A stretch of DNA of 42,322 bases from a bacterium (GTDB lineage: Bacteria > UBP14 > UBA6098), in the NCBI GenBank assembly GCA_023145965.1, contig JAGLDC010000078.1, forward strand, positions 1 to 42,322, in the 5' to 3' direction. Every line of letters begins with the position of its first letter. Position 1 is the stretch's first letter. Positions 3,083-32,095 of this stretch are shown one piece after another. The notes beneath the pieces were generated by a model, which ran no database searches, was not told the origin of the DNA, and saw nothing but the letters and a program-made list of their open reading frames with translations. The position numbers and the translations under genes were made by a program.

Positions 3083-4228
3083 ATGAAAAAAATAACAATA
3101 CTAGGTTCGGCCGGGTCAATAGGAACTCAAACTTTGGATATCGTATCTCGACTTCCTGAGCGTTTCGAAATATATGGCCTTGCAACTTTGAATGAGGCAG
3201 AAATCCTTGCCGCCCAATCTAAAATTTTCCAACCCAAAGTTGTAGCAATAGCCGATGAAACCGCAGTTAAAGAGTATGAGAACCTATTAGGCAACTATCG
3301 GCCGGAGATACTCGCCGGACCGAAAGGTGTCGAAGAACTTGCAAGAAGGGAGTCAGCGGATATTGTCGTAAATGCTATTGTGGGATCCGCAGGATTGATG
3401 CCGTCTATGGCCGCTATACGCTCGGGGGTTCGCCTTTGCACTGCCAATAAGGAATCTCTCGTTATTGCAGGACAAATACTCATGCCTTTAGTTCGTGAGA
3501 AGGGCGCCGAGCTAATCCCTATTGACAGCGAGCATTCGGCTTTGCTTCAGGCCTCATTGGCTGGAGCAGGTAAAGAGATTCGGCGGCTCATTATTACAGC
3601 TTCAGGAGGGCCATTTCACGGGAAAGAGGTTGACCTCGATTCAGTTACTGTCGAGGAAGCCTTGAAACATCCGAATTGGAAAATGGGTCCAAAAATAACA
3701 ATAGATTCAGCGACTATGATGAACAAGGGTCTCGAGGTAATCGAAGCAAGATGGCTTTTCGATATTCCTCCATCGCAAATTGATGTGCTTATCCATCCGC
3801 AAAGTATAATTCACAGTATTGTCGAATATGTTGATGGTTCACAAATAGCTCAAGCTAGCTACCCAGATATGAGGTTGCCGATTCAATATGCCCTCACATA
3901 TCCCGAACGAACTAAATCCCCTATTCCGATATTAAACCTTGCCGAATTGCGCAAATTAACCTTCGAAGAGCCGGACTATTTAAAATTTCCTTCGCTGCTT
4001 CTTGCCTATGATGCGCTTGAGGCTGGTGGTTCTTCTCCATGTGTTCTAAATGCTGCTAACGAAGCTGCTGTTAAATTATTTTTGGAGGGCAAAATTCGCT
4101 TTTCAGAAATCGCACGCATTGTTAACCGCGCCTTGACCAAACACAATAAATCTTTAGAACTCAATATCGATGGTATTTTGGAGCTTGATCGAGAGATTCG
4201 AGAGAGAACCTTAAGAGACTTCAATTGA
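3083..4228 (+). CDS. dxr: 1-deoxy-D-xylulose 5-phosphate reductoisomerase
   Basis: Converts DXP to 2-C-methyl-D-erythritol 4-phosphate with NADPH, the second step of the MEP isoprenoid pathway. Seen: the N-terminal nucleotide-binding GSAGSIGTQTLDIV (residues 8-21), TANKESLV near 120, metal ligands in IDSEHSAL (D148, E150), the flexible-loop region SGGPFHG near 174-180, and MMNKGLEVIEARWLF near 212-226, which supplies further metal and substrate ligands. The 381 residues match the family length and no key residue is missing. Start is ATG with GAGG six bases upstream. The gene stands alone: no other MEP-pathway gene adjoins, although in many bacteria it sits with cdsA, uppS or rseP. The long RNA locus follows. 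Confidence 0.96.
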   Translation: MKKITILGSAGSIGTQTLDIVSRLPERFEIYGLATLNEAEILAAQSKIFQPKVVAIADETAVKEYENLLGNYRPEILAGPKGVEELARRESADIVVNAIVGSAGLMPSMAAIRSGVRLCTANKESLVIAGQILMPLVREKGAELIPIDSEHSALLQASLAGAGKEIRRLIITASGGPFHGKEVDLDSVTVEEALKHPNWKMGPKITIDSATMMNKGLEVIEARWLFDIPPSQIDVLIHPQSIIHSIVEYVDGSQIAQASYPDMRLPIQYALTYPERTKSPIPILNLAELRKLTFEEPDYLKFPSLLLAYDALEAGGSSPCVLNAANEAAVKLFLEGKIRFSEIARIVNRALTKHNKSLELNIDGILELDREIRERTLRDFN

Positions 4229-4525
4229 GAAAAAAACCACTAAATGCCCATTTTTTGCCAATTTTATAACACTATATAATTATTCGTCAAGTTATTATTG
4301 GTGTTATAAAAACGCTTTTTTGCACAGTCTAATTCATTGACAATCATGATATTATTAGCTTATCAACATTGCGCTGAATCCCTTTTCAGGTCGTATTGTT
4401 TCTATTAGGCCATAAGCGTGTTTGTGATGTTTTTCACAATACAAAATAATTTCTTGTATCTCCTTTTATATCATTATGATATGGCTATCTGCCAATTCGC
4501 TTAAAAAAGTATTTCTGAAAAATTC

Positions 4526-4553
4526 TTGAGAAAATATTTTTCGCCAATATATT
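4526..4553 (+). promoter_or_regulatory. Candidate promoter of the large RNA
   Basis: TTGAGA (4526-4531), a 16-base spacer and TATATT (4548-4553) precede the structured region. This would put transcription start close to 4560, where the run of hairpins begins. Supported by position and hexamers only. Confidence 0.45.
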
Positions 4554-5682
4554 AGTATTGCCTTCGGGAAGATGAATAAGGCATCTTTGAAAACGAGGTT
4601 ACGAGGAGTGAAAAAAGGACTTTTTCGGTTCTTCCGGAGAAGGACTCTCATTCCAAGAAACTCGACCCAAAAGGTTGCTCGTGGGAGTTGCCCACCGGCA
4701 CATTGAAAACGGACTAAGGAACCCAGTGCTATTGAGCAAACTGCACTTTATCGGCGGCTTGACCCTTCGGGGTGTTCGTTCGAAAGGATGAACAGGAAAG
4801 CCATCGTCGACCGATTAGATGGCCGAAGAATTCGGCCGGTCGTGAGAGAAGAAGGTCTCTCTAGTTGATAGGAAACGAATTCACTGCCCTTCGGGGTGAA
4901 CGGGAGAAAAACCCGCAATGCAAAGGTGATACGGCACTATCGAACGGCAACCGATGTGAATTTTCTAAATCCTTCTGGGAGTGGTTTAACAACCATGAAA
5001 ATTCGGTTTGCATCTTCAGGGAAAACCGTAAGGCAATTCCTGAACGATCCTGCTCTTTATATAAATGCCTTCGGGTAGTTTATAGAGGTAGGGTTGGCAC
5101 TAGAGTGGCAAAACACCCTTCTTAATTGAAGAGAGAAAGGAGCAATTCTTTCGAGGCAACGCGTAGAGCCAGTCTTGTGAGGCCATTGAGCGCGTTTAGC
5201 GCGACATGTGGCATGATGCAGATTTATAACAACGGTGCGTAATGGGTTAGAAGCCCTTATGGGTTTGCCTTTAAAGGCAACGCAAGATTTTAACTCCAGC
5301 GCGGTTATAGGATGTAGTTCGCTAGATATCCGCCCTTCCTATGGAAGGAATCGGGCGAAAGCTACGATTGGTAACGCGGAGATTTAACGGAAAACATCCC
5401 TATGGTTACGGTCAAATCCACCCTAGAGGTTCGAAACGGGTAAACCGAATCGAAGCAATGGAAATAGGCCTTGATCCTGAAATTCTTCTGGTGAGGCTGT
5501 TTGGTCCCGAATAGCTATGAAAATTAGCTCTCTCGGAGGCAAAACAATCGAGCCGGACCATCGATAGGGTGCAACCCGGCACACAGAGAAACGGGCCCTT
5601 CGGGGCGCACGGAGTAATACTGTGCGAGAGATTCCGCGATATCGAATGCTGAAAGCTCAAAGAAATTAGATATTATATGCCT

Positions 5683-5720
5683 GATTTTTTCAGTACATGG
5701 ACCGAAAAATCCTGCCCATG
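5683..5720 (+). other. Candidate H-type pseudoknot at the RNA 3' end
   Basis: GATTTTT (5683-5689) pairs with AAAAATC (5705-5711). The loop of that stem holds CATGG (5696-5700), which pairs with CCATG (5716-5720) beyond the stem. The two stems interlock as in an H-type pseudoknot, four bases before the spacer to the terminator hairpin. Confidence 0.5.
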
Positions 5721-5723
5721 AGC

Positions 5724-5757
5724 AAAAAGAGGTCGTCTTAGGACGGCCTCTTTTTTT
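5724..5757 (+). terminator. Rho-independent terminator of the large RNA
   Basis: AGAGGTCGTC (5728-5737) pairs with GACGGCCTCT (5742-5751) over ten base pairs with a TTAG loop, followed by seven T. An A-run on the 5' side means it could also act on the minus strand. Confidence 0.9.
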
Positions 5758-5844: not shown

Positions 5845-6372
5845 ATGATTAGGAAAATTTATTTCATATTAATATTGGCGTCTGCTTTAACCTCTATACA
5901 ATGTGACCGAGCAGCAGGTTCTGATCCTCCATCAAGCAATGGTGGTAATGATGATTCCACAACCTACCTTATCGTCGACGTCAAAGATGGAGATACCATC
6001 GAGCTAGACAATGCCGAGACTATTCGTCTTGTGGGTATCGACACTCCTGAGATGAACTATGGTAGCACGCCAGAACCTTGTGCTGTTGAAGCGACAGAAT
6101 ATACCGAGACTTCTGCGCTGGGGAAACGATGTTATCTAGTGTATAATATCCCTGTTGGTGATTCACTAGATATTTATGGCCGAACTCTCGCCTTCGTTCA
6201 TATTCTGCCTGGTAGCACTTGTCTTAATATCGAGATATGCAGAGCTGGCTGGAGCGAGGACTGGGATAGCTTTCCGGTGCGAAGTGATTATGAATTGCAG
6301 TTTGAACAGGCTGAAACCGAGGCTATGAACGCAGATAGAGGTATATGGGATACAACAAATAACTGCGACTGA
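5845..6372 (+). CDS. Exported staphylococcal-nuclease-like (TNase) protein
   Basis: A calcium-dependent DNA/RNA nuclease fold, likely acting outside the cytoplasm. Seen: an N-terminal hydrophobic signal (residues 1-19) followed by Cys20; the lipobox is poor (Q at -1), so lipoprotein or cleaved signal peptide are both possible. A Ser/Gly/Asp-rich linker runs to about 40, then the SNase domain: VKDGDTIEL (D50), RLVGIDTPE (R61, D66, E69) and DIYGRT (R113), which match the active-site D21, R35, D40, E43 and R87 of staphylococcal nuclease. The C-terminal helix has the usual AxxxxRGIW end. The fold appears complete and catalytically competent. No Shine-Dalgarno is visible. deoC follows after 13 bases, suggesting co-transcription and perhaps use of environmental DNA. 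Confidence 0.88.
   Translation: MIRKIYFILILASALTSIQCDRAAGSDPPSSNGGNDDSTTYLIVDVKDGDTIELDNAETIRLVGIDTPEMNYGSTPEPCAVEATEYTETSALGKRCYLVYNIPVGDSLDIYGRTLAFVHILPGSTCLNIEICRAGWSEDWDSFPVRSDYELQFEQAETEAMNADRGIWDTTNNCD

Positions 6373-31739: not shown

Positions 31740-32095
<356 letters not shown>

Follow-up and report, generated by a model that had tools for sequence, protein, structure and literature searches.

GOLLD, ROOL and OLE are the described RNAs closest in kind to the one analyzed here. GOLLD is a very large ornate bacterial noncoding RNA with one conserved and one variable part, and the GOLLD RNA that has been solved is 833 nt long (PMC12286853). ROOL, of ~660 nt, is a large, multi-branched RNA without a known protein partner (PMC12286853); it is phage-associated, and its variable linker shows little structural similarity among homologues. 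OLE, a bacterial noncoding RNA of ~600 nt, is likewise large, has an ornate structure conserved in evolution, is found mainly in Bacillota, and has Oap protein partners. OLE, ROOL and GOLLD have recently been shown to form RNA-only assemblies or oligomers (PMC12286853).

The RNA described here comes from candidate phylum UBP14 (Idrufiota); the 12 genomes that a review counts for this phylum originate in hydrothermal sediments and in wastewater (PMC11382960). The window, i.e., the whole stretch of DNA that was analyzed, is the 42,322 nt of contig JAGLDC010000078.1. The RNA of the window is called W, and its homologues from four other genomes are called G1 to G4; the source genomes are metagenome assemblies. 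We conclude that positions 4558–5757 of the plus strand are the gene for a folded noncoding RNA of ~1.2 kb, the first member of a new family of large structured RNAs that has no detectable relatives and falls within the loosely defined group of large, ornate bacterial ncRNAs. The probability that this is a real and new structured noncoding RNA family is put at about 0.95.

The RNA Gene and Its Signals

The gene and the signals that delimit it are as follows.

4526–4553, plus strand: promoter, with −35 TTGAGA (4526–4531), a 16-nt spacer and −10 TATATT (4548–4553), from a consensus scan
4558–5757, plus strand: large noncoding RNA, its ends being deduced from the promoter and the terminator
5724–5757, plus strand: intrinsic terminator with a 12-bp stem, a UUAG loop and a U tract, conserved in all five homologues with compensatory changes

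A sequence-only reading of the window had placed a structured RNA here, and its coordinates were right: the RNA starts at ~4558–4560 and the terminator ends at 5757. The promoter, then described as near-consensus, matches the consensus at 10 of 12 positions; its −10 TATATT is kept in 5/5 homologues, as is a TTG ~22 nt upstream, at the −35 position. The terminator is likewise present, and conserved in 5/5, although its stem has 12 pairs and not the ten first counted. An automated search for terminators missed it, so that the terminator is read from the sequence and from its conservation in all five homologues. These signals suggest that the large RNA is transcribed independently, with its own promoter and terminator, and would act in trans; the whole explanation to which this belongs is given even odds.

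The gap of ~320 bp between dxr, the gene upstream, and the RNA carries several conserved blocks, including the following two.

4337–4368, plus strand: block TTGACA-N17-TTATCAACA, recognizable at the same distance in 5/5 homologues
4422–4439, no strand: palindrome TTGTGA-N6-TCACAA, upstream of the promoter, a putative operator

Candidate readings of the first block are a second promoter or a DnaA-box-like site. The palindrome, which resembles a Crp/Fnr site, is probably an operator: TGTGA-N6-TCACA is intact in four of the five homologues and degenerate in G4, and lies at a fixed spacing of ~125 nt before the −10. A CRP regulon is unsupported. That is, the palindrome 18-mer occurs elsewhere once each in three genomes (G000, G001 and G002), inside coding sequence, and a search for Crp-type HTH proteins gave just a weak match in the window's genome and weak, sparse matches across 17 UBP14 genomes.

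The locus is noncoding. As first claimed, no credible protein is present: there is no open reading frame of at least 90 amino acids between the end of dxr at 4228 and position 5845, and the longest frame within the RNA has 86. Where short frames of the homologues resemble one another, they do so on both strands and in several frames, a scatter that fits a conserved RNA and not a protein. Folding bears out the description as a highly structured RNA. The minimum free energy is −428.3, versus −358.4 (sd 10.0) for dinucleotide shuffles (z = −7.0), whereas two coding stretches of similar size give z = +1.1 and +1.7; the antisense strand gives −3.2, and the four homologues −4.0 to −5.2. Three identical CCC-UUCG-GGG hairpins are indeed found (at 4763, 4887 and 5596), and the orientation deduced from UUCG loops holds, as CCTTCGGG occurs five times on the plus strand and not at all on the minus strand.

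Comparison with Catalogued RNA Classes

Cut with short flanks, the RNAs measure 1211 (W), 1007 (G1), 1089 (G2), 1404 (G3) and 1864 nt (G4). Large ornate noncoding RNAs are taken to be noncoding, longer than ~500 nt and extensively structured with covariation, and at 1007–1864 nt the five RNAs are all of these. A search with the covariance models of Rfam 15, at gathering and at permissive E-values, found no family match in W or its four homologues, as the sequence-only reading had anticipated. The models for GOLLD, ROOL and OLE gave 0 matches in the window or the homologues, permissive E-values included. Base pairing in the aligned homologues covaries far above shuffled and slid controls, and this covariation and the lack of an Rfam match together support a new large RNA family.

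GOLLD and ROOL lie in phage or prophage settings, often near tRNA genes. The new RNA adjoins the housekeeping gene dxr, and phage and plasmid collections hold no match to it; one viral contig (L024) matches over 18 nt, in apparent coding sequence, and this is put down to chance. GOLLD has a conserved and a variable part, whereas the new RNA has both ends conserved and the middle variable. The variable part, unlike the linker of ROOL, consists of repeated three-way junctions.

RNase P RNA (RF00010) lies on a different contig (G000:C17), and likewise on other contigs of the remaining four RNA-bearing genomes, which rejects that identity for the new RNA. A group I or II intron is rejected too: no model matches, and the locus is intergenic and fixed beside dxr. 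The window has its tmRNA at 31740–32095. A strongly diverged representative of a known class (GOLLD, ROOL, OLE, RNase P, or a group I or II intron) might still have been missed by the models, since lineage-specific RNAs can escape them, and the size and ornate structure do resemble those of GOLLD, ROOL and OLE. Even so, such descent is extremely unlikely: five homologues give no match at permissive thresholds, all five genomes have their RNase P RNA at another place, there is no phage or intron context, and the domain layout is different. This alternative, which had been left standing earlier, is unsupported, given the separate RNase P RNA and tmRNA and an architecture and gene context unlike those of GOLLD, ROOL and OLE. 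The new RNA is novel in its layout (conserved ends, a modular middle, variable copy number), in its size, to 1.9 kb, and in its chromosomal setting.

Distribution and Genomic Neighborhood

The homologues found by blastn, in four other genomes, all belong to the same bacterial family of UBP14. A pattern for the conserved core (see below), allowing ≤3 mismatches, is present in 5/17 UBP14 genomes; these are 5/5 genomes of that one family, with 0/12 among the others. An exact 20-mer scan for the core across ~85,000 species returned four of these same contigs and no others, and covariance models of the module and the 5′ domain gave no credible match in 386 genomes. Weak model matches in G006, G009, G011 and G156 all lie within coding sequence and were set aside. 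It is suggested, as part of the same evenly balanced explanation, that the RNA family is restricted to this lineage and occurs in a single bacterial family of UBP14.

The RNA lies directly after dxr in 5/5 genomes; in six genomes of other families, dxr is present and the RNA absent. In the window it is flanked by dxr (3083–4228) and a staphylococcal-nuclease-type gene (5845–6372), and the neighbors are argF, yifB, dxr, the nuclease gene, deoC and rlmH. The nuclease gene follows the RNA in W and G2, the order nuclease-deoC-rlmH being shared by G2; in G4 no nuclease gene was found behind the RNA, and the contigs of G1 and G3 end soon after the RNA.

This neighborhood raises the question of a cis-acting element, either an extended leader of the downstream nuclease gene, deoC or rlmH, or a 3′ extension of dxr. 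The constant position after dxr, and the same three genes downstream in G2, would suit such an element. However, the RNA has its own conserved promoter and a strong conserved terminator ahead of the next gene, the nuclease gene was not found after it in G4, and dxr of other families does without it. A role in cis is very unlikely.

The position of tmRNA relative to dxr also varies: the two are ~27 kb apart in the window and a few hundred bases apart in G1 (tmRNA at 3375–3732 of L011). The genes have thus been rearranged, with the RNA keeping its place beside dxr.

Conserved Ends, Core and Long-Range Helix

The sequence-only reading overlooked a long-range helix that joins both ends of the RNA, and the organization of the interior as an array of related modules. 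The conserved elements are the following.

4560–4676, plus strand: 5′ domain, a three-way junction with a closing helix (4560–4567 with 4667–4676), a hairpin (4568–4588) and a branched arm (4594–4664), from RNAalifold and pair counts
4677–4685, plus strand: 5′ strand of the long-range helix, GCUCGUGGG, pairing with 5715–5723
4702–4728, plus strand: invariant core AUUGAAAACGGACUAAGGAACCCAGUG, 27/27 positions identical in five genomes of three genera, just after the 5′ strand of the helix
5702–5723, plus strand: conserved 3′ segment CCGAAAAAUCCUGCCCAUGAGC, near-invariant in five species, its final 9 nt being the 3′ strand of the helix

In the 5′ domain, 97.5% of cells are paired and 7/40 pairs show a compensatory change, a count that includes the 4677–4685 segment and that 0/500 shuffles equal; slid controls each give ≤2 compensatory pairs and ≤52% pairing. 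The long-range helix pairs GCUCGUGGG (4677–4685) with CCCAUGAGC (5715–5723) over 9 bp and spans up to ~1.7 kb. Independent full-length partition-function folds of the five RNAs give it mean probabilities of 1.00, 0.93, 0.98, 1.00 and 1.00, and favor it over a competing local hairpin, GUGGG:CCCAC. The sole change in the helix is a C to U that retains a G-U pair. Since the helix is nearly invariant, its support is thermodynamic and from conservation, not from covariation.

A pseudoknot can also be drawn in the first 28 nt (window 4560–4588), GCCUU:AAGGC with AAGAU:AUCUU, in five species with one mismatch in G4. Nearly all its cells pair but not above shuffles (205/500), and it competes with the better-supported 5′ closing helix. 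As the two are mutually exclusive, the pseudoknot is possibly an alternative fold or part of a conformational switch.

Large ribozymes typically have a conserved core surrounded by peripheral domains that vary. The new RNA, with its conserved core and variable middle, fits that pattern, and its 27-nt invariant core and near-invariant 3′ segment would be brought close by the 9-bp helix. It could thus be a large ribozyme or a ligand-responsive RNA in which these two elements form the active site and the modules are structural padding. We consider this quite unlikely: the RNA resembles none of the catalytic families in Rfam, it interrupts no gene and occupies the same site in 5/5 genomes, and the gene context suggests no substrate or ligand.

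The Three-Way-Junction Modules

Between the conserved ends, the RNA is built from modules with a common plan, as follows. A closing stem, P1, encloses a short hairpin, usually UUCG-capped, a second hairpin, in many cases GNRA-capped, and a purine-rich joiner of the GGCAA type that leads back to P1. In class A the junction is flush, the second hairpin has ~10 bp and the joiner is GNAA; class B features AGA, a second hairpin of 7 bp and GAGGCAAC. A joint MAFFT alignment misaligned the two classes, which are therefore treated apart. The elements of the window's RNA are:

4756–4802, plus strand: module with P1 GGCU:AGCC, a UUCG hairpin, a GAAA hairpin and an AGGAA joiner (descriptor scan)
4844–4861, plus strand: covarying hairpin GAGAGA-AGAAGG-UCUCUC, paired in all five species
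4881–4929, plus strand: module D, with P1, a UUCG-type hairpin, a CGGG-AGAAAAA-CCCG hairpin and a joiner, at a fixed position in five RNAs
5111–5167, plus strand: class B module, with a hairpin, AGA, a 7-bp GNRA hairpin, GAGGCAAC and P1 (covariance model R2, 62.2 bits, E 2.1e-16, this copy being in the training set of R2)
5327–5382, plus strand: a diverged further module (R2, 17.3 bits, E 0.008, outside the training set)
5592–5636, plus strand: module C near the 3′ end, with P1, CCC-UUCG-GGG, a 7-bp hairpin with a 7-nt loop and an AGAGAUU joiner (descriptor)

Pairing in these elements is retained while sequence changes. The stem at 4844–4861 reads GAGAGA, GGAGGG, GAGCG, AGCGC or CGCGC across the five species. 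In module D, 98.3% of cells are paired and 8/12 pairs show a compensatory change, against 0–1 in slid controls. The 7-bp stem of module C covaries in four species; module C was not recognized in G2. Compensatory changes affect 13/17 pairs in class A and 13/17 in class B (nine copies each), counts in which structure is favored because the modules were selected and aligned with structure in mind. In slid controls of class B, pairing falls from 85% to 34–52%. P1 is weak in the window's own class B copy (5111–5167). With five homologues from one family, the covariation rests on few lineages and on copies within one RNA; these copies are 58–96% identical and retain their pairing. The sequence-only model R1 preceded the structured R3 and adds little. 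Selection for base pairing is strong, and the locus encodes a structured noncoding RNA.

A descriptor search finds 6, 6, 2, 8 and 9 three-way junctions in W, G1, G2, G3 and G4, versus shuffle means of 0.35–1.3 (0.45–1.3 for W, G3 and G4); for W, the 6 compare with 0.45 per shuffle and a maximum of 3. In single-sequence folding, not every module always forms. Module starts in G3 and G4 are mostly 81–108 nt apart, or about twice that (170–176), which gives the longest RNAs a module period of ~90 nt. Their number runs from ~3 to ~12 among species and tends to rise with RNA length, and within these genomes class B modules, as found with R2, occur only inside the large RNA. The computations show an RNA with conserved ends, joined by a long-range helix around an interior of three-way-junction modules that vary in number.

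Repeated structural elements within one RNA are also known from CsrB and CsrC, in which each repeat is a single hairpin that carries a GGA loop and binds CsrA. By analogy, the new RNA could be a molecular sponge: each module would bind one copy of an RNA-binding protein, and a burst of RNA would titrate the protein, as CsrB and CsrC titrate CsrA. Repeated modules with a conserved joiner (GGCAA or GAGGCAAC), in copy numbers that differ among species, speak for this, and the conserved operator-like palindrome upstream suggests regulated expression. Against it, the repeats are three-way junctions with UUCG or GNRA loops, not GGA, and conservation is strongest in the single-copy core and the ends, not in the repeats. 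CsrA (PF02599) is absent from 17/17 UBP14 genomes and was detected in three control genomes; its absence weakens the sponge reading, which could still apply to another protein. On balance, a sponge is unlikely.

Proposed Mechanism and Significance

As the likeliest mechanism, held at slightly less than even odds, we propose that the RNA works as a trans-acting scaffold. By zipping together, the 5′ and 3′ segments would expose the invariant core, which would serve as the site of activity or of binding, and the module arms, capped by GNRA and UUCG loops, would form a rigid, extensible body. This body may pack on itself, may pack on other copies of the RNA, as OLE, ROOL and GOLLD do, or may carry protein. 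Homo-oligomerization of the new RNA is suggested by analogy only.

A more tentative proposal, which we hold less probable than the scaffold itself, is that the RNA is of a categorically new kind, an extensible machine. It would combine a single helix-closed core with an evolvable array of three-way junctions of ~90-nt units, and species would tune the size of the particle through gain and loss of modules.

Very large bacterial noncoding RNAs are few, and the new RNA, at up to 1.9 kb, is more than twice the length of the solved 833-nt GOLLD. It occupies a stable chromosomal site, not a phage, and is built of repeated modules, the number of which differs among species. As nature provides variants of different length around a fixed core, the growth and the role of giant RNAs become directly testable in this family.
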